Source of the DNA: Robiginitomaculum sp.
GTDB taxonomy: Bacteria; Pseudomonadota; Alphaproteobacteria; Caulobacterales; Maricaulaceae
Assembly (NCBI GenBank): GCA_021776565.1
Contig: JAJFFQ010000024.1
Location: forward strand, 1-64,000
Direction of reading: 5' to 3'
DNA: 64,000 nucleotides
Position 1 is the stretch's first letter; the number at the start of each line of letters is the position of its first letter. The translations under genes were made by a program, and so were the position numbers. The notes beneath the pieces are model-generated. The model saw only the letters and a program-made list of their open reading frames with translations, did no database searches and was not told the DNA's origin. Shown in pieces: positions 5,976 to 18,658 of the stretch.

Positions 5976-6702
5976 CCACCAAGTATCCGCGTTTATCAAA
6001 GGCAAGGCCATAGGCGGCGGTGAAGGATTTGGCAGTCAACACTTTTCCCGGCGCACCATCTTCGCCAATAATACCCTCATTCAAAAATACCAACCGGTCA
6101 CAATAACGCGCCGCCAAGGGCAGGTCATGCAAAGCACAAAGCACACTGGTTCCGGCCTGTGCGCGGGCGTGCAAAATACCCATAATGCGGTGCTGCTGGG
6201 CTGGATCCAGTGCATTGCTCGGCTCATCGACCAGCACGACCGGCGTTTGTGCGCAAAGCGCACGAGCCAACAACACCCGGCTTCGCTCACCACCGGACAG
6301 CGTGTTGATTGTTCGTGATGCAAGTCGATCAACGGCACACGCTTGCATGGTGTTTTCTACCGCCGCCTCATCCTCTGCCACACTTGATGCACTGGCATAA
6401 CGGCCAAGCCGGACAAGATCACGTACCTGCATAGCCCAGTGTACCGGGCCATTTTGCGGCAAATAAGTTATTCGCCGCGCCCGGTCTCGCAATGTTAATT
6501 CAACCAAGGATATATCATTGACATAAACCGCTCCTGTTGTGGGCGCCAACAACCCCATAATCATGCGCAGCAAAGTGGTTTTTCCCGCACCGTTTGGGCC
6601 AACAAGACCGGTAAGGCCGGAACCAAAACTGATATTGATGCCATTGAGAATCGATGCACCACCCGGCCCCCCATAGATATTTTCAAGACATACGACCGTC
6701 AT
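5965..6702 (-). CDS. btuD: Vitamin B12 ABC transporter ATP-binding protein
   Basis: A 245-residue ATPase of the FecCD/BtuCD importer class. Walker A GPNGAGKT is at 35-42, Q-loop Gln83, signature LSGGE 135-139, Walker B VVLVDE 155-160 and the H-loop His192. It powers cobalamin import across the inner membrane through BtuC. The ATG at 6702 overlaps the btuC stop (ATGA); the open frame extends upstream but only over btuC. Operon btuB-btuF-btuC-btuD, controlled by the upstream cobalamin riboswitch. Confidence 0.9.
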   Translation of the reverse strand: MTVVCLENIYGGPGGASILNGINISFGSGLTGLVGPNGAGKTTLLRMIMGLLAPTTGAVYVNDISLVELTLRDRARRITYLPQNGPVHWAMQVRDLVRLGRYASASSVAEDEAAVENTMQACAVDRLASRTINTLSGGERSRVLLARALCAQTPVVLVDEPSNALDPAQQHRIMGILHARAQAGTSVLCALHDLPLAARYCDRLVFLNEGIIGEDGAPGKVLTAKSFTAAYGLAFDKRGYLVDDK

Positions 6703-7682
6703 GGAAACGCCCGCCTGTGCCGAACAACCAGAAAAAGAAAAAACGGGGCGCCCAGCAAAGCTGTAGTTACGCCAAGGTATAATGGTGTACCAGGGCCACC
6801 AAGAAGTCGAGCCAGCATATCCGCGCCTAAAAGCAAAAATGCCCCGGCAAATGCTGATGGCACAATTAACGCACCAGGCTTTGCCCCTAAAAATGGTCGC
6901 AACAAATGCGGTGCTGCCAAGCCTATAAAGCCAATAGCACCCGACACGGCAACACCGGAGCCGACGCAAAGCAGCGTTCCGGTCACCACCAATTGCCCTG
7001 TGCGCGCTGGCGAAACCCCAAGGCTACGTGCTGTGTCCTCACCAAGGCTAAGAGCATTAAGCGCAGCGCCGGATAGCCCAAGAATTCCGATACCCAAAAC
7101 AACAAGTGGCGCGGCAAAGGCCAACTCATTAAAACTGCGATCAGCCACCGAACCCATCAGCCAATAAGCAATTTCTGACAAGGCCCAGGGATTAGGCGAA
7201 AGGTTCATTAAAAGCGCGGTTAACGCCACACTAAGCGAAGACAATGCCACCCCGCCAAGGATTACGCTGGTGATCGACGCTTCATCACGAGCCAGCAATA
7301 GTAATACGGCAGCAGCAACCCCTGCACCAGCCATGGCCGCGGCAGGTAAAACCCAGAACGAGGCTGCCGCCGCTCCAAAATAAAGTGCCGCAACGGCACC
7401 CAGACCGGCAGTGGCTGAAATACCGACAATCCCCGGATCGGCCAACGGGTTGCGTAAATAACCTTGCAAGGCGGCGCCCGAGGCACCAAGCCCCGCACCG
7501 ACAAACAGGGCAAGCAGCGTTCGGGGCAGCCGAATTTGCCAAAACACCAGCATCCGGGCTGGATCGCCCTGATGAGTTAAGGCGTCAAAAAACTGCGCCG
7601 GGCTGTAAGACAAGTCCCCCAACATCAAAGAGGTCGTACCCATAATTAACAAACTGGCAAAACCAACAAGCCCGACCTTCAT
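6699..7682 (-). CDS. btuC: Vitamin B12 ABC transporter permease
   Basis: A 327-residue FecCD-type permease with about nine to ten hydrophobic segments. The early segment RLPRTLLALFVGAGLG followed by ALQGYLRNPLADP is the hallmark of the family. It forms the inner-membrane channel that takes cobalamin from BtuF. The start overlaps the btuF stop by ATGA and the end overlaps btuD by ATGA, so the three transporter genes are translationally coupled. B12 rather than siderophore specificity is inferred from the riboswitch and the BtuB-like receptor. Confidence 0.9.
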   Translation of the reverse strand: MKVGLVGFASLLIMGTTSLMLGDLSYSPAQFFDALTHQGDPARMLVFWQIRLPRTLLALFVGAGLGASGAALQGYLRNPLADPGIVGISATAGLGAVAALYFGAAAASFWVLPAAAMAGAGVAAAVLLLLARDEASITSVILGGVALSSLSVALTALLMNLSPNPWALSEIAYWLMGSVADRSFNELAFAAPLVVLGIGILGLSGAALNALSLGEDTARSLGVSPARTGQLVVTGTLLCVGSGVAVSGAIGFIGLAAPHLLRPFLGAKPGALIVPSAFAGAFLLLGADMLARLLGGPGTPLYLGVTTALLGAPFFLFLVVRHRRAFP

Positions 7683-8527
7683 GGCCTGTCTCCCTGCTTT
7701 AATCGCCTTAGCGCACCGGCTATTTCCTCTGTTGCCTCAATCAGATGCGGGCCGGCACAAACCCAGTGGCGGGCAGGGATGTTTACCGTTGGTACGTTTT
7801 TTAACATCTTTGCCAGTAACGGGTGGCGGCTGCGTATATCAACCACACTGGGATAACCGTTATTAAAAAAACTGGTCAGGATCAGGTCGGGTGGAGCAAG
7901 TGCGAGTTTTTCAAGTGGTATTCTCCCCCATCCCTTTATGCCCAGCGTCTCGCCATGGTTAATCCCGCCAGCAGCTACAATGGCCTGGTCGACAAATACA
8001 CCCGAACCGGCACTGGCCCCACCAGGGGCAAGATATAAAACCCTGGGGCGTGCAAGGTTCGGTTTGGGTTTTTCCTGCATGACAGCAAGCCGGGTCTTGA
8101 TTTCATCAATACGCTGTTGCGCGACGCCCTGACGGTTCAGCGCCGCACCCAGAGTTTCAAAATTGGTAAAGATACCTGTGAAGTCTTCCGTCCAGTTCAG
8201 GGAAATTACCGCCGCTCCTGCATTTTGCACGGCCCGGGCCGCACGCACCGGGTCGCCCGGCCCCATGACAACAACATCAGGGTCTAGGGCCACAAGACTT
8301 TCTGCGTCGGCACGGCCAAAATTTTTAACGCGCAAGGGGTTTGGTGCAGAAGATAGTTTCGTATTGGCCTGCCATGATAGGGCCGTTATATTTTGAGGCT
8401 CTGCCAGTGCCAGAACGTAAGCATCGCCACACAGACTAGTCGAGACAATGCGCGCCGGTGCGGCAAAGGCCACGCCCGCAAACATTATCGCTATAAAGGC
8501 AAAAATGATCGCTCTAGAACTTTGCAC
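7679..8527 (-). CDS. btuF: Periplasmic cobalamin-binding protein
   Basis: A 282-residue class III solute-binding protein. A signal peptide (AIIFAFIAIMFAGVAFA) precedes the PARIVSTSLCGDAYVLAL segment typical of BtuF/FepB-like proteins. I place the start at GTG 8527: it has a GGGGGA ribosome site about 6 nt upstream and overlaps the btuB end by 14 nt. The open frame to 8635 would add a non-signal extension inside btuB. It delivers cobalamin to BtuCD. Confidence 0.87.
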   Translation of the reverse strand: MQSSRAIIFAFIAIMFAGVAFAAPARIVSTSLCGDAYVLALAEPQNITALSWQANTKLSSAPNPLRVKNFGRADAESLVALDPDVVVMGPGDPVRAARAVQNAGAAVISLNWTEDFTGIFTNFETLGAALNRQGVAQQRIDEIKTRLAVMQEKPKPNLARPRVLYLAPGGASAGSGVFVDQAIVAAGGINHGETLGIKGWGRIPLEKLALAPPDLILTSFFNNGYPSVVDIRSRHPLLAKMLKNVPTVNIPARHWVCAGPHLIEATEEIAGALRRLKQGDRP

Positions 8528-10379
8528 GAATTCCCCCGTATATTCCCCGACCCTGCCCGGCAAACCCGAAGACTTCGCTATAGGCTTCATCCAGTAAATT
8601 ATCGCCGCGCAAATAAAGCTGTATATGTTCTCCAATATCGTAATGTGCTGTGCCGTGAACCAGCGTATAGGCGTTCAACGTGATTGTGGAAAAACTGCCA
8701 AAGTCCGTATCTGTCATTTTTCCGTTATGATCCGCGCCCAACGAAATTCCAAAAGGCTGATTGGCAGGTTGCCAATGTATACTTGTTGAGGCGAGAAATT
8801 TTGGCCGCCTTATCTCGCGAACATTGCTTTGGCTGGTATGTTGTAGCGTCAGTGAGCCATCAAGCGTTAGTGCGCCGGATACCGGCCAGCTTCCTTCGAT
8901 TTCCAAACCCCGGCGACGACTTTTGCCAACCCTGTTGCGAGCCGTTGCGGGGAAGGCACCAAAGTCGGTAAAAATCTCGTTCATTAGGCGGGACGAATAA
9001 CCGCTTAGTGACAGTTTGGCTGGCCCGATGTCCTGATCCCAACCCAGCTCAAACCCGGTAGACTTTTCAGTTTCCAGTTCCGGATTTCCAACAAAAAACC
9101 CAGGAAAAAACCCGAATAATTCAAAAAACCCTGGATTTTTAATACCCTGACCCACGGATGCCCGAAGACGCCCACCTAGCGGTACAAAAGCATAAGCCGC
9201 GCCCACACGCCACGTATTGGCATTAGCAAATAATGAGTGTGTATCACGACGCGCCGAAGCGTTTAAGACCAGGTCATGGCTCACCAGACGATAATCTGCC
9301 GCCAGCGCATAACCGGTATTGCGACGTTTCTGGTTTTGAAACGCCCCCCGCCCACCATCATTTTTATAAATTTCGCGCTCACCCTCACCCAATATTGTGA
9401 AATGGTGAGCCGTTTTTCCCGTGTCCCAGTCAGCATTTATTTGATAAGAGAGTTGCGTGCGAAACCCGTTAGCACGACTGTTGTCATCTACATCCTGCGT
9501 GGTCGTATAGGTGGATTTAAGCGCATGGTTGACATGCCCGTTATGACTCTGCGCCGTAAGTTCTGCCAGTGCATCAAACTGGTTTTGCCGCAAAAGCCGC
9601 AGTACATCATCAAGGCGTCCATCAAAGTCGGTGTCGGCATCAAACTCGCTTTTGCTGCGAGTATAACGGCTGCGGGTTTTCAACGCTACCCTTGCTCCTA
9701 ACGGCGCGTCAAACCCGGTCAATGCACTGAAGTTATCATAGCCATCCCTGTCTCCGCCAGTGCCGGATACATCATAGCCATCACTGGTTCCGTAGCTGGC
9801 ATTGCCGAACAAACGCGCCTTGCCAAGCTGCATTTGCCCATTGGCCCCGGTGCGAAAGCTTTCAAAAGATCCATATTCTGCAAAACTACCGGCGGTGTTT
9901 TTTGTCTTGGCTGGCGTTGTCACAAAATTGATGACGCCGCCTATGGCATCGCTGCCCCAAAGTGCCGATTGCTCGCCGCGCAACACCTCGACCCGGGAAA
10001 TACCGCTTGATGGCATCGTGTTAAAAGAAAACGCGCCGGTAAACGGGTTGGACGCTTCTATGCCATCGATAAGCACCAGCACATGATTGGCCTCAGAGCC
10101 ACGAAGGCGCACCTGGGTAAGCGCGCCCGCAGGGCCGGAACGGTTCACCGCCGCGCCTGGCACAGCGCGCAAGGCATCGGCGACTAAAACTATGCCCAGC
10201 GCCTGCAAGTCCTCATCGGTAAGCACGCTGACCGCTGCTGTAACTTCCTTGCGCGCAATAGGCGTCCGCGACCCTATGATAATCATTTTATCGTCATCAG
10301 AACTGTCCTCAGCAATTGTTGAGGTGGGCAATGCCAATGCGAATACCGAAAGTGTCAACCCTGTGTTTTTATAAAACAA
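8514..10379 (-). CDS. btuB: TonB-dependent vitamin B12 outer-membrane receptor
   Basis: A 621-residue TonB-dependent receptor. It has a signal peptide ending near TIAEDS, a TonB-box-like stretch around residue 31, a plug domain (VLTDEDLQALG, GDNLLDEAYSEVFG near the end) and a beta-barrel ending in a terminal Phe (GGIRAKF). The start is TTG 10379: GGAG lies 7 nt upstream and no in-frame ATG exists before the signal peptide. A cobalamin riboswitch sits about 135 nt upstream, which supports B12 as the ligand. It is the first gene of the btuBFCD operon. Confidence 0.9.
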   Translation of the reverse strand: MFYKNTGLTLSVFALALPTSTIAEDSSDDDKMIIIGSRTPIARKEVTAAVSVLTDEDLQALGIVLVADALRAVPGAAVNRSGPAGALTQVRLRGSEANHVLVLIDGIEASNPFTGAFSFNTMPSSGISRVEVLRGEQSALWGSDAIGGVINFVTTPAKTKNTAGSFAEYGSFESFRTGANGQMQLGKARLFGNASYGTSDGYDVSGTGGDRDGYDNFSALTGFDAPLGARVALKTRSRYTRSKSEFDADTDFDGRLDDVLRLLRQNQFDALAELTAQSHNGHVNHALKSTYTTTQDVDDNSRANGFRTQLSYQINADWDTGKTAHHFTILGEGEREIYKNDGGRGAFQNQKRRNTGYALAADYRLVSHDLVLNASARRDTHSLFANANTWRVGAAYAFVPLGGRLRASVGQGIKNPGFFELFGFFPGFFVGNPELETEKSTGFELGWDQDIGPAKLSLSGYSSRLMNEIFTDFGAFPATARNRVGKSRRRGLEIEGSWPVSGALTLDGSLTLQHTSQSNVREIRRPKFLASTSIHWQPANQPFGISLGADHNGKMTDTDFGSFSTITLNAYTLVHGTAHYDIGEHIQLYLRGDNLLDEAYSEVFGFAGQGRGIYGGIRAKF

Positions 10380-11519: not shown

Positions 11520-13235
11520 ATGGCCAGACGTGTACTAAAACCAAACCCTGAACCAACCGCCGCAGAGCGTGCGGTTATTAGCGCCGCCATGACCGGGGAG
11601 GTTGCTAATTTTACGGCCAAATCAGCACCGCCAGTTCTGCGGGCCGAGGTATTACGCCGCATTATCACCGGTCTTGCCCAGAGGGGTCGAAAAAAAGCGG
11701 ATACAGTTGCCCCGCGCGGTGTTCGTATTAAATCCGCAATTATTGAGGGCGAGCTTGATCTTTCAGGCTGGCCGGGGCGGGCCGATGACCCATCCCGCCC
11801 GCTACCAACACTTGAGTTGGAAAACTGCACTCTTGATAGCCCGCTATATCTGGATGAAAGCCATATTAACAGTTTGTCGTTTATCGGGTGCAGGCTTGCT
11901 ATGCTTTCTGCAGGTAGCGCGCACATAAAGGGGTCGGTGCGACTAAATGGTTCAAAGGTAAAAGGTGCCGATGACCGACTGTCCGGCGCCCACCATGCGC
12001 TTGATTTTGCCGGCGCAAAAATTGGTGGCAACGTCATGCTTCGCCCACACAAGGGGTGCCGTTTTGAAGTTCACAGCGAAGTTACGTTTTTAGGCGCGCA
12101 AATACACGGTGCTTTTAACGCCAATGGCGCACTATTATGCAACGCAAACGGCATTGCATTGAACTTCACTCGCATTGACGTCCGAAATAGTGTCTTTCTC
12201 ACCAGAGAAAACAATTACCGCTTTGAAGCCAAAGGTGAGGTGCGATGCTGGATCGCGCAAATCGGTGGCCAATTTGCCTTCCATGGCGCCCTGTTACAAA
12301 ACAGGGACGGCGTGGCGCTCAGCTTTAATGGTGCAACCATCCGGGGCAATTTGTTTTTACTGCCTTCCGATAACGGCACGCCATTTACTGTAGAAGGAGA
12401 CATACACTTAACGGGTACGCGCATAGAATCCAACCTGCTCTCAAGAAACATTAAAATGAAGGGTGTTTTTGATGCCCGCAGTGCACATATTAGCGCCCTC
12501 TTTGACGACCCCGTATCTGGCTGGCCCCGGCAAAATGGCCATTTACGCCTTTCTGGCCTGACTTATGAGCGTTTACACAGCAATACGGATGATGATCGTG
12601 ACCTGGTTTTTACCCACCGCCTTGACTGGATAAAGGGGCAATATAAAGACCCTGAACGGCCAACCTGTGCCGAGTTTGACCCTCAACCCTTTAATCAATA
12701 TGCGAAAATTTTGCGTGATCGGGGTCAGGTTGATGATGCGGATCGCGTGTTAATAGAAATGCGCGAGATGCGTCTTAAGGCACACGTTGATCGTTCCTCC
12801 ATGCACTTTTTTCAAAAGTTTCTGGGGCTAACCTCCCGGTTTGGTTATTCCGGTATCCGGGCGGTTATGACGTTGGCTATCTGGGTGTTAATGGGCACCA
12901 TTATGTATGGCACACACGCCTTTATGGGAAACTTTGGCCCCGCCGAAGACGTTGTGCGGGGCCAGCACCAGACAATGCTGGACACTCGCGTGAGCATACC
13001 TGGCGTGATCCAGACCCGAACCCGTGGCTGCCCCGGTATGATTGCGCCGCTATACGCCATAGACACCTTGTTGCCGGTGGTTGAGTTAGGTCAACGTCGC
13101 GCCTGTGCCTTTGATCCACAAGGCACGCTGGGAGCACCCCTTTGGCGCACCCTTGATCTTTTTTACGCGCTTATCGGGGCAATTCTTTTCGCCATTACCG
13201 TGGTAACCCTGACCGGGCTTGTGCGCGAGGATTAA
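11520..13235 (+). CDS. Beta-helix-like repeat protein with C-terminal membrane domain
   Basis: A 571-residue protein resembling entries that databases call membrane-associated oxidoreductase, a name I would not rely on, since no redox cofactor motif is visible. Residues ~55-330 hold irregular repeats of the form GAxIxG (FAGAKIGGNVML, LGAQIHGAFNANGA, FNGATIRGNLFLL), suggesting a right-handed beta-solenoid. A charged linker follows, then a membrane segment near 438-458 (MTLAIWVLMGTIMYG). An extracytoplasmic loop contains two cysteines (TRGCPGM, RRACAFDP), and a last membrane segment lies near 545-567. It stands alone 43 bp after yceI. Function unknown. Confidence 0.75.
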   Translation: MARRVLKPNPEPTAAERAVISAAMTGEVANFTAKSAPPVLRAEVLRRIITGLAQRGRKKADTVAPRGVRIKSAIIEGELDLSGWPGRADDPSRPLPTLELENCTLDSPLYLDESHINSLSFIGCRLAMLSAGSAHIKGSVRLNGSKVKGADDRLSGAHHALDFAGAKIGGNVMLRPHKGCRFEVHSEVTFLGAQIHGAFNANGALLCNANGIALNFTRIDVRNSVFLTRENNYRFEAKGEVRCWIAQIGGQFAFHGALLQNRDGVALSFNGATIRGNLFLLPSDNGTPFTVEGDIHLTGTRIESNLLSRNIKMKGVFDARSAHISALFDDPVSGWPRQNGHLRLSGLTYERLHSNTDDDRDLVFTHRLDWIKGQYKDPERPTCAEFDPQPFNQYAKILRDRGQVDDADRVLIEMREMRLKAHVDRSSMHFFQKFLGLTSRFGYSGIRAVMTLAIWVLMGTIMYGTHAFMGNFGPAEDVVRGQHQTMLDTRVSIPGVIQTRTRGCPGMIAPLYAIDTLLPVVELGQRRACAFDPQGTLGAPLWRTLDLFYALIGAILFAITVVTLTGLVRED

Positions 13236-14123: not shown

Positions 14124-15047
14124 ATGAGCCTGTTTGGAAACGCCAGCGCACCTCCCGGTGGCGCAGGCGACAGCGATCTTGTTAAAGACAGCAGCGACGC
14201 AAGCTTTGTTGCCGATGTTGTTGAAGCTTCAAAAACAACGCCTGTAATTGTTGATTTCTGGGCGCCATGGTGCGGCCCTTGTCGCCAGCTTGGCCCGGCC
14301 ATTGAGCGCGTCGTCAAAGCCAGTAACGGCGCGGTAAAACTGGTCAAGGTCAATATAGATGAAAACCCGGGCGTGGCCGGGCAAATGCAGGTTAAATCCA
14401 TTCCTGCCGTTTTTGCCTTCAAGGATGGCCAGCCCGTAGACGGCTTTATGGGTGCCCAACCAGAAAGCCAGATCAAAGCCTTTGTTGATCGCCTCACCGG
14501 CGAAACCGATGTTGGCAAAGAAGCCGATGCCCTGGTGGTCAGAGCCAAAGAGTCGCTTGATCTGGGTGATGTTGGTGGTGCCGCACAAGATTTTGCCGGT
14601 GCCTTGCAGATTGATCCGCAAAATGTTGCTGCGCTGGCAGGCATGGCACGTTGCTATTTGCAAAACAATGATGTGGACGGAGCCAATGCTCTGCTTGCGG
14701 GTCTGGATGACCTTGCTAAAAAACATGCCGATGTCATTAGCGTTATGGCGGCCATAGAGCTTGCAAATTCTGGCAATGAAAACGAAGCAGATACAACCGC
14801 GCTTACCACCAAAATAAAAGATAATCCTGACGATCTTGATGCACGGTTTTGCCTGGCAAAGTCTTTAAGCACTTCAGGCGATATGGATGGCGCGATGGAG
14901 CATCTTTTATATAGCATTGCCCGTGATAAAGACTGGGATGGTGGCAATGCGCGTCAGTTGCTCTTGAAGCTTTTTGAAGCCGCCGGGCCAACATCCAAAT
15001 TTGCGGTCCATGGCCGAAAACAACTTTCCTCGCTTCTTTTCAGCTAA
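14124..15047 (+). CDS. Thioredoxin-TPR co-chaperone (CnoX/YbbN family)
   Basis: A 307-residue protein with an N-terminal thioredoxin domain and a C-terminal TPR-like helical region (~135-305; [20 protein letters not shown]). The active site [13 protein letters not shown] keeps both cysteines, unlike E. coli YbbN. This matches the Caulobacter-type CnoX, which combines holdase activity with redox activity under oxidative or bleach stress. It is followed 11 bp later by a Trm112-like gene, a pairing often seen in alphaproteobacteria. Confidence 0.88.
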
Positions 15048-16041: not shown

Positions 16042-16078
16042 ATGGGCCGTTTGAGGGCGTTCACCCTTAAGCGGCCAT
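16042..16078. terminator. Long hairpin between convergent DUF4282 and clpB genes
   Basis: ATGGGCCGTTTGAGGG pairs, with two bulges, with CCCTTAAGCGGCCAT across a 6-nt loop. It covers the clpB stop codon. It lacks a clear T-run on either side, so it may be a weak bidirectional terminator or an mRNA 3'-end stabiliser. Confidence 0.45.
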
Positions 16079-18658
16079 CTGTTCCAGAGCTTTACCATTA
16101 AAGGTCAATTTACCGTCGGCAACACTTATTTTGATCTGGTCGCCATCATTGACGACACCCTCCAGTATTAGTTTGGCCATTGGGTCTTGCAGTTGTTTCT
16201 GGATCACCCGCTTTAATGGCCTGGCTCCATAGGCCGGATCATAACCCTGCTCGCCAATCCAGGTGCGCGCTTCATCGTCCAGTTCTATGGCGATGTTGCG
16301 ATCCACCAAAAGCGTCAATAAACGCCGCATCTGAATATCGACTATACCGGCCATGTGCTCAGGTTTCAGCCTGTGAAAGAGAATTATCTCATCTACGCGG
16401 TTCAAAAACTCTGGTCGGAAATGGCCTCTTACGGCACCCATGACCGCTTCGCGGCTATCCTGGGCAGACTGTGATGAGGCGGCTGCCAAGTGTTGCGCGC
16501 CCAAATTGGAGGTCATGATAATCAAGGCGTTACGAAAATCTACTGTGCGCCCTTGTCCATCGGTCAGGCGACCGTCATCAAGCACCTGTAATAACACATT
16601 AAAAACATCCGGGTGAGCCTTTTCAATCTCATCCAGTAAAATGACCTGATAGGGTCGGCGGCGCACCGCTTCGGTGAGCGCGCCACCCTCTTCATAACCA
16701 ATATAGCCTGGCGGCGCACCGATCATGCGGCTAACCGAGTGTTTTTCCATATATTCAGACATGTCCAGGCGAGTGATGGCGTGTTCATCATCAAACATAA
16801 ACTCTGCCAGCGCCTTGGTTAGCTCTGTTTTGCCAACTCCGGTCGGGCCTAAAAACATGAAAGACCCGATAGGTTTGGCCGGGTCAGACAATCCGGCGCG
16901 CGCCCGACGCACCGCGTCTGATACAGCCGTTAGCGCCTCGTCCTGCCCGATTACCCGCCCCCTTAGCATATCTTCCATTGCCAGCAGTTTTTCGCGTGTT
17001 CCTTCGAGCATTTTTTCCACCGGAACACCTGTCCAGCGGGAAACTATGGCGGCAACTTGCTCTGCATCGACCACTTCAAGAGCAACGCCTTGCTCGCTCT
17101 GTTCCTGCTCTTGTAACAAGGCGTCTTCAAGTTGCGGGATGCGGCCATATTTTATTTCGGAGGCACGCGCCCAATCGCCATTGCGCTCGGCTTCTGCCAA
17201 TTCATTACGCAACAGCTCCAGTGCTTCCTTGGCCTTGGTCGCATCTGCCAGACGGTTTTTTTCAGCGCGCCAGGCACCGCCCAGTTCTGCCGACTGCGCG
17301 TCCAGTTCGATAATCTGGGTTTCAAGTTTTTCAAGGCGTTGTTTTGAAGCCTCATCGCTTTCCTTGCGCAAGGCCTCTGCTTCTATATGGGCTTGCACCA
17401 ACCGACGATCGACCTCATCCAACGCTTCTGGCTTTGAGTCTATCTGCATACGCAAGCGCGAGGCCGCCTCATCCATCAAATCTATGGCCTTGTCGGGTAA
17501 AAACCGATCTGTGATATAGCGTGTGGACAATGACGTTGCGGCCACAAGCGCGCTATCGGCAATACGCACGCCATGGTGAACCTCATATTTATCTTTCAAG
17601 CCACGCAAAATAGAGATTGTGTCCTCTGCATTTGGTTCCTCAACCATCACAGGCTGGAACCTACGCGCCAATGCGGCATCTTTTTCCACATGTTTACGAT
17701 ATTCATCCAGCGTCGTTGCGCCAATGGCGTGCAATTCCCCGCGCGCTAATGCAGGTTTGAGCAAGTTGGACGCATCCATGGCACCATCTGATTTACCCGC
17801 GCCCACAAGCGTGTGCATCTCATCGATAAACAGAATTATCTCACCCTCGCCGGCCTGTACCTCATTGATGACCGCCTTCAGGCGTTCTTCAAATTCACCA
17901 CGGTATTTGGCACCGGCGATCAATGCGCCCATATCCAGAGATAACAGTTTCTTGTTTTTCAAACCCTCTGGCACATCACCATTGATGATGCGCAACGCCA
18001 AACCCTCGGCGATCGCGGTTTTGCCAACACCCGGCTCACCAATAAGCACCGGATTGTTTTTTGTTCGGCGCGAGAGCACCTGAATGGTTCTGCGAATTTC
18101 CTCATCACGCCCGATAATCGGATCAAGTTTACCCACACGGGCTGCCTTAGTGAGGTCATTGGTATATTTTTTTAGAGCATCATAAGCCTGTTCAGCAGTA
18201 GCGGTATCAGCAGAGCGACCCTTGCGTATCTCATTTATGGCCTGATTAAGTTTTTGTGCAGTCAGTCCTGCATTTTTGAGAATCTCTGCTGTTTTTGCCT
18301 CCTTGGTAAGACATAGCGCCAGTAAAACCCGCTCCACCGTGACAAAGCTATCACCCGCTTTTTGCGCTGCTTCCTCTGCTGTCTGTAACACCCTGGCGGT
18401 ATCTGCTGACATATAGATACGCCCATCACCGCCCTCTATTTTTGGCAATTTGAAGAGCTGTTCATTTACGTCCTGCAAGGCTTGTTCAGGCTGCCCTCCT
18501 GCGGCACGCATGAGGTTTGCACCAAGGCCTTGCACATCATCCAGCAGACTTTTCAGCAAGTGTTCGGGCGTAAACTGTTGATGCCCTGCCGCCAGCGCCT
18601 GGGTTTGTGCAGCCTGGATCATACCCTTGGCACGATCAGAAAATTTTTCTATATCCAT
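16067..18658 (-). CDS. clpB: ATP-dependent disaggregase ClpB
   Basis: An 863-residue Hsp100 disaggregase that works with DnaK on aggregated proteins. It has a Clp-N domain (residues 1-~145; [13 protein letters not shown]), a first AAA+ domain with Walker A GEPGVGKT near 205, a long coiled-coil middle domain (~400-530, absent from ClpA), and a second AAA+ domain with GPTGVGKT near 605. The length matches the family. It reads opposite to the DUF4282 gene at its 3' end. The 5' region carries a possible heat-shock promoter. Confidence 0.96.

Follow-up and report, generated by a model that had tools for sequence, protein, structure and literature searches.

HetL, Qnr, MfpA and other pentapeptide-repeat beta-helices are soluble proteins made of regular pentapeptides. 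Among the papers listed by searches of the open-licence literature, neither the gene family treated here nor the use of pentapeptide-repeat solenoids as cytosolic modules of membrane pores was found described. In a section of PMC7159879, pentapeptide repeats are presented as superstructure-forming domains. The window analysed in this study is a 64,000-nucleotide stretch of Robiginitomaculum sp. (contig JAJFFQ010000024.1, positions 1 to 64,000). As listed below, one of its genes encodes a 571-aa protein which resembles HetL (3du1) in its predicted right-handed beta-helix but differs from HetL, Qnr, and MfpA in being irregular and membrane-bound. I propose, with a probability of roughly 40%, that it is a solenoid-controlled, channel-like membrane protein lacking the K+ filter.

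11520..13235, + strand: whole gene, an ORF with an ATG start, encoding a 571-aa membrane protein with a pentapeptide-like solenoid and two transmembrane helices (2TM)
11715..12554, + strand: predicted right-handed beta-solenoid, strands in residues 67-343, confident in residues 101-320 (AF2, VIA-align, PF13576)
12672..12785, + strand: helical hairpin coupling segment, residues 385-422, resembling the junction of pentapeptide 2TM proteins (model, alignment)
12843..12848, + strand: G442-Y443 ahead of TM1, the G-Y/F motif (35-row alignment)
12849..12905, + strand: TM1, hydropathy peak at residues 444-462
13029..13031, + strand: C504, outer-loop cysteine before the conserved segment (35-row alignment)
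13053..13094, + strand: loop segment Y512-D515-P519-G524-Q525 (YxxDxxxPxxxxGQ), conserved, falling where 2TM channels have their pore helix and filter (alignment)
13104..13106, + strand: C529, outer-loop cysteine after the conserved segment (35-row alignment)
13167..13223, + strand: TM2, hydropathy peak at residues 550-568

The gene is a real ORF and belongs to a conserved but patchily distributed family. Its relatives in six other genomes of the genus are 63-76% identical to the 571-aa protein, and one of these copies has a disrupted end. The one close relative with a name, in Robiginitomaculum sp. OFTM333, is 76% identical. With the 571-aa protein as a query, matches were found in 12 of 41 genomes, namely 10 of the 18 genomes of the genus (its own included) plus G019 and G021. 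In the class-wide search, 13 of 289 genomes matched, its own included and part of them weakly. A C-terminal profile matched 16 of 398 genomes of the phylum; among these matches, L117, L118, and L119 are loci of other groups, and L115 and L116 are giant relatives. Further relatives lie on records of Streptomyces, Rhodococcus, Nonomuraea, Rhizobium, Shinella, Microvirga, Roseomonas, and Acaryochloris. The relatives are 473 to 858 aa in length, contig-cut copies excluded. A family profile (A2) was built from 28 of 30 family ORFs, excluding L057 with its disrupted end and L064, which consists of the N-terminal part only. The family has no match in PADLOC. Phage origin of the gene was rejected, as family matches were absent both from phage sequences and from four viral-contig scans. 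Three promoter-like sites were found, none of them on the + strand (3.2 in shuffles), together with seven terminator-like sites versus 4.8 in shuffles (sd 2.4).

Some copies have unusual structures. In genome G012, the reading frame of the copy (L057 7626-9293, + strand) is disrupted near the C-terminus, and the tail matches in another frame. Genome G017 has a diverged second copy in two pieces (L063 160-1311, + strand, and L064 104-1465, - strand), which appear to be a single gene interrupted by two contig ends. The giant relatives (L115 6790-11241 and L116 6537-10985, both on the - strand) are about 1,480 aa in length, match Pentapeptide_3, and resemble the family at their C-terminal membrane end.

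The first-pass annotation had described the protein as a beta-solenoid with irregular GAxIxG repeats, joined to two membrane helices with a disulfide-capable outer loop, and each element of this description held. GAxIxG is present three times in residues 61-345, a count that none of 2000 shuffles attains (mean 0.06), and the looser [AGS]x[ILVFM]xG seven times, a number reached by 17 of 2000 shuffles. The repeats were rightly called irregular because a loose tandem-pentapeptide pattern is not enriched in the 571-aa protein (975 of 2000 shuffles reach it). The autocorrelation of hydrophobicity is highest at lags of 21 residues (0.19) and 11 residues (0.187), while 95% of the shuffled maxima are below 0.170. 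The right-handed beta-helix expected from an AlphaFold-type model was obtained. Two sequences, the 571-aa protein and its relative L050, served as the input, and the mean pLDDT values of the five models were 61.0, 56.7, 52.6, 35.9, and 33.2. The best model is a beta-solenoid with 10-residue-block pLDDT values of 84-94 over residues 101-300, except for one block at 63, and of 73-75 over residues 301-320.

In VIA-align, the solenoid model matched right-handed beta helices. HetL was found at Z 18.1 (rmsd 2.9, 229 residues), tied with right-handed beta-helix enzymes. No channel was among the matches, but the rows cover residues 15-373 only and are uninformative on the membrane part. Foldseek gave no match for the solenoid model in the PDB at E<=1e-3 (best E 0.012), and the likeness to Qnr and MfpA was seen only among its weak rows. 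The Pentapeptide_3 family (PF13576) matched the 571-aa protein at 17 bits, below the cutoff of 27; across the family, matches at E<=0.1 were obtained for 21 of 28 members, and for 6 of the 28 they reached E<=6e-6. Sequence searches of the PDB gave weak matches only: a tail fibre (E 0.0063), a designed protein (0.022), MCBG-like proteins (0.025-0.048), a reaction-centre chain (0.1), and haemagglutinins (from E 0.18). The solenoid is predicted to be cytosolic.

Is the protein an oxidoreductase, as certain database records of its relatives state? The first-pass annotation had seen no oxidoreductase motif and regarded the name, which it called common for such proteins, as misleading. The absence of the motif was borne out: GxGxxG/A and CxxC do not occur in the 571-aa protein, and no oxidoreductase family exceeded the cut-off in Pfam and NCBIfam scans of 28 members. 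The claim of a common name stood only in part. Relatives lie on 29 plasmid records, counting that of the query itself; three carry the oxidoreductase name, 15 are hypothetical, and 11 are unannotated under the match. Thus, the name is used for 3 of the 18 annotated plasmid relatives, all in Streptomyces. These three align with the 571-aa protein, with 90-93% of the query aligned at 23-24% identity, and differ in name only. Besides these three annotations, a match to PF17954, the C-terminal cupin domain of quercetinase, may be cited for an oxidoreductase (residues 228-268 of the 571-aa protein; E 0.026). However, the match has 15.1 bits versus a cut-off of 22.9, is limited to 41 residues within the solenoid, and was seen in just one of the 28 members; it is the sole redox-family match at E<=0.1 in the Pfam and NCBIfam scans of these members. 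Neither a redox fold nor a cofactor site, the findings that the annotation had set against its own reading, was seen in the solenoid model, and the modelled soluble part is a beta-helix. An oxidoreductase is therefore hardly credible.

As for the origin of the name, SCO6657 is listed as a "membrane-associated oxidoreductase" in a table of PMC6302529, and in that table 6657 stands beside 6-phosphogluconate dehydrogenase, glucose-6-phosphate isomerase and dehydrogenase, and transaldolase. No paper on SCO6657 was found in the open-licence literature. If SCO6657 is a relative, one might guess that the name arose from such a neighbourhood. The family of the 571-aa protein exposes this database name as misleading.

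The membrane domain was analysed with an alignment of 35 members, which omits L052 (the same gene as L050), L057, L064, L113, L115, L116, L120, and the plasmid loci L244-L248. TM-like hydropathy peaks at residues 444-462 and 550-568 correspond to the two membrane helices. P390, G442, and G553 are invariant in all 35 members, and Q389 and P519 are each kept in 34. The residue at D515 is D in 34 members and E in one, and that at Q525 is Q in 30, E in four, and V in one. From residue 423 onward, the AlphaFold model has pLDDT values below 50; the membrane domain alone, again with a two-sequence input, reached a mean of 46.8, and no structural conclusion was drawn from it. A loop hydropathy peak of at least 0.8 was found in all 32 scorable family members versus 104 of 124 control loops, and the loop hydropathy is not above that of the control loops (p 0.17; length-matched p 0.82). 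Loop hydropathy was rejected as a sign of a re-entrant helix, since the 104 control loops equally reach 0.8.

The disulfide-capable outer loop is represented by C504 and C529. Both are Cys in 11 of 35 members, and the remaining 24 show no Cys at either of the two columns (gaps account for 4 of these 48 cells). Because the 11 carriers are the rows most similar to the 571-aa protein, the Cys pair may be one gain rather than many events. The co-occurring cysteines, as well as the patchy occurrence of the gene in the genus (10 of 18 genomes), would suit a membrane sensor whose loop responds to an outer signal such as redox, pH, or envelope stress and relays it to the solenoid. However, no output domain was seen, and redox sensing cannot be the general function because 24 of the 35 relatives lack both cysteines. 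A sensor of this kind is unlikely.

Does the membrane domain resemble that of any other protein? The profile of the family C-terminus also matched pentapeptide-repeat proteins outside the family. Two of them, L117 and L118, have pentapeptides (PF00805) and an Ion_trans_2 domain (PF07885; E 1.3e-9 and 5.4e-14) with TTLGYGD, in the same order of parts. A profile, A1, was made from 26 of 27 cut C-termini (L057 was omitted; L064, L068, and L069 lack the PQP anchor). Seven pentapeptide 2TM proteins, three with TxGYGD and four without, were scored with A1, while L122 and L123 stayed outside the test. All seven, at 23.6-40.1, outscored every one of the 227 control TM hairpins (max 19.0). This rank is partly a matter of selection because L117, L118, L119, and L121 had been picked with the family's own profiles. 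L127, L182, and L198 had not been found by a family profile and scored 30.0, 28.7, and 23.6, also above all controls. The part aligned by A1 is mainly the hairpin, the GY motif, and TM1. All 11 generic K+ channels scored within the controls with either profile, and a profile from TM1 to the end raised only 1 of 18 (L119) above all controls. The control hairpins carry up to 75 residues upstream and come from 739 ORFs chosen greedily by length, some of which are perhaps not genes; ORFs matching a family profile (46) or containing a filter motif (14) were excluded.

Profiles were also compared with each other, using the family (n=35) and three groups defined here after inspection, E (n=18), D (n=3), and K (n=5). 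Group E consists of 17 of 20 profile matches plus L119; L239 and L240 were omitted, L185 was moved to group D, and L121 was not used. L122, L182, and L123 were placed by sequence among the pentapeptide predicted K+ channels. Over the full domain, the scores were 60.9 for family-E, 54.1 for family-K, 80.4 for E-K, and 38.7 for D-K, whereas the maxima with 29 control clusters were 17.7 for the family, 20.5 for E, 17.5 for K, and 20.6 for D, and reversed profiles did not exceed 16.2. The junction alone gave 48.2 for family-E and 47.4 for family-K, and with K+D included the family's junction scores span 47.4-50.0 (controls <=17.2). From TM1 to the end, family-E scored 28.4 (control max 17.6), and E-D and E-K+D scored 24.3 and 27.6 (control max 19.3). 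Family-K+D (19.4) was barely over its controls (18.3), and D-K (18.7) was over the controls of group K (15.9) but under those of group D (19.3). Family-K (16.6) and E-K (16.1) were not above controls. Thus, no direct link between the family's part from TM1 onward and K+ channels emerged from these tests. In the part after TM1 only, family-E (22.4 versus a control max of 16.8) is the one clear link; D-K (19.6) is just over both control sets (18.6 and 15.4), E-D is marginal (19.7 versus 19.3), and E-K+D (18.9) is below controls.

Judged by these profiles, the hairpin-GY-TM1 junction is similar, above all controls, to that of pentapeptide 2TM proteins including predicted K+ channels, a similarity that is new here. 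The family is tied over its whole membrane domain to the filterless group E, and by its junction to the predicted channels. A common origin of the pore half would rest on a chain with one weak link. The predicted channels (L117, L118, L122, L182, and L123) share the order of solenoid, hairpin, GYG, TM1, loop, and TM2 with the family as well as the similar junction and TM1. In contrast, their T-x-G-Y-G-D is absent from the 571-aa protein, and the direct similarity from TM1 on is not above controls. In place of a T-x-G-Y/F-G filter, the segment of the 571-aa protein reads LLPVVELGQ, and PF07885 had no match at E<=0.1 in 28 family members. In one profile alignment, YslD...Piv.lGQ falls close to yyS...Tlgygd of the channels, and the ungapped distance from Y to G agrees by inspection. 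Group E resembles the family over the whole membrane domain, also with the junction removed, but has another loop motif and another C-terminal tail and is a separate subfamily.

Group E (L224-L241, L119, and L198) lacks the filter, with a C-terminus like LALRNRFRMK in many of its members; of 192 genomes of the class, 20 match the group's profile. L185, L183, and L184 are pentapeptide 2TM proteins with YSALNMMTANPPEIG(I/V)KP replacing the K+ filter and apparently form a degenerate channel group.

The main rival explanation is a membrane-anchored scaffold or adaptor, in which cytosolic proteins would dock onto the solenoid while the two helices serve as an anchor only. The description of pentapeptide repeats as superstructure-forming domains in the above section of PMC7159879 would agree with it, as would the varying total length of the relatives (473 to 858 aa) and the ordinary loop hydropathy. 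On the other hand, the whole-domain similarity to group E and the junction similarity to predicted channels argue against a mere anchor, which would not need the conserved D515 and P519 in the outer loop. No widely shared neighbour gene was found, either. In 37 loci of 26 lineages, the sole neighbour family in at least three lineages is an AI-2E-type transporter family (named from L080), which occurs in three; the comparison omits L074, considers families in at least three lineages only, and includes several closely related lineages. The scaffold function, which the first-pass annotation had suggested, gained no positive support from these neighbours. A scaffold nevertheless keeps a substantial share of the probability, short of even odds, because the model of the membrane part is unusable, the loop hydropathy is ordinary, and part of the evidence would look the same if the channels had undergone a domain swap after TM1.

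The solenoid-controlled, channel-like protein is favoured by the solenoid model with its VIA-align match, by the profile scores exceeding the controls, including those of all seven pentapeptide 2TM proteins, and by the conservation of D515, P519, G442, and G553. The points against it are that family-K similarity from TM1 on and generic K+ channels lie within controls, that the junction similarity would be no different had the channels acquired another domain behind TM1 by a swap, that the loop hydropathy is no higher than in controls, and that the membrane part has pLDDT values mostly below 50. In the proposed mechanism, the cytosolic solenoid would be coupled via the helical hairpin and the G-Y motif to the domain of TM1, loop segment, and TM2. 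This domain may oligomerise around a central path like 2TM channels, and the YxxDxxxPxxxxGQ segment may dip back into the membrane at the position of the K+ filter. As TxGYG is missing, the protein would conduct something other than K+ or form a closed valve. The solenoid would bind a cytosolic partner or ligand and gate the membrane part. In the Cys-bearing clade, a C504-C529 disulfide might brace the outer mouth; Kir channels have a comparable disulfide flanking the pore.

The proposal may be extended to the whole family as solenoid-gated pores, with a beta-helix sensor, a coupler of hairpin and GYG, and a TM1-YxxDxxxPxxxxGQ-TM2 channel in which another permeation motif, bearing a conserved acidic residue, replaces the K+ filter; in this full form it is tentative and rather doubtful. 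It would give a testable function to an uncharacterised family of Alphaproteobacteria, actinobacterial plasmids, and one cyanobacterium, and it suggests that pentapeptide-repeat solenoids may act as cytosolic modules of membrane pores.

In the genus, a thioredoxin-TPR gene lies downstream of the family gene in all six relatives L052-L057, and YbaK-like and ClpB-like genes (by inspection) each follow in five of the six. The upstream gene is YceI-like at the locus of the 571-aa protein and in L052 (YceI 138 bits, below the cut-off of 232), and alpha/beta hydrolase-like (by inspection) in L054-L057. The genes at L058, L059, and L061 and the second copy (L063/L064) have other locations. Because of these, the kept neighbours were taken as inherited gene order, and an operon-based function was rejected.

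A different context was found on the Acaryochloris plasmid pMB04 (L247 4396-7032). The family gene, apparently split into two overlapping ORFs, is directly behind an overlapping Trypco1 gene, and both lie between caspase-nSTAND1 genes, with a transposase gene and a second Trypco1 gene intervening on one side. Trypco1 was named from conflict systems, according to a section of PMC7159879, and the locus is possibly a conflict-system context, as a single case. The family protein might then act in an immunity or cell-death system, as an effector or accessory that permeabilises the membrane upon a trigger. Since this is one locus, no such neighbours were noted in the genus of the 571-aa protein, and PADLOC and phages gave no match, such a role is quite improbable.

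A gene of the AI-2E-type transporter family is near the family gene at L061, L080, and L110, which may be chance. In the 64-kb window, the ORF at 14124-15047 (+ strand) encodes a thioredoxin domain followed by TPR-like repeats and lies near a ClpB-like gene at 16067-18658 (by inspection), and the thioredoxin-TPR/ClpB-like order is mostly kept in the genus. On the other side of the 571-aa gene, 6699-10379 (- strand) encodes a BtuC-like permease and a substrate-binding protein of an ABC importer; the 621-aa ORF at 8514-10379 beside the importer reads, on inspection only, like a TonB-dependent receptor.
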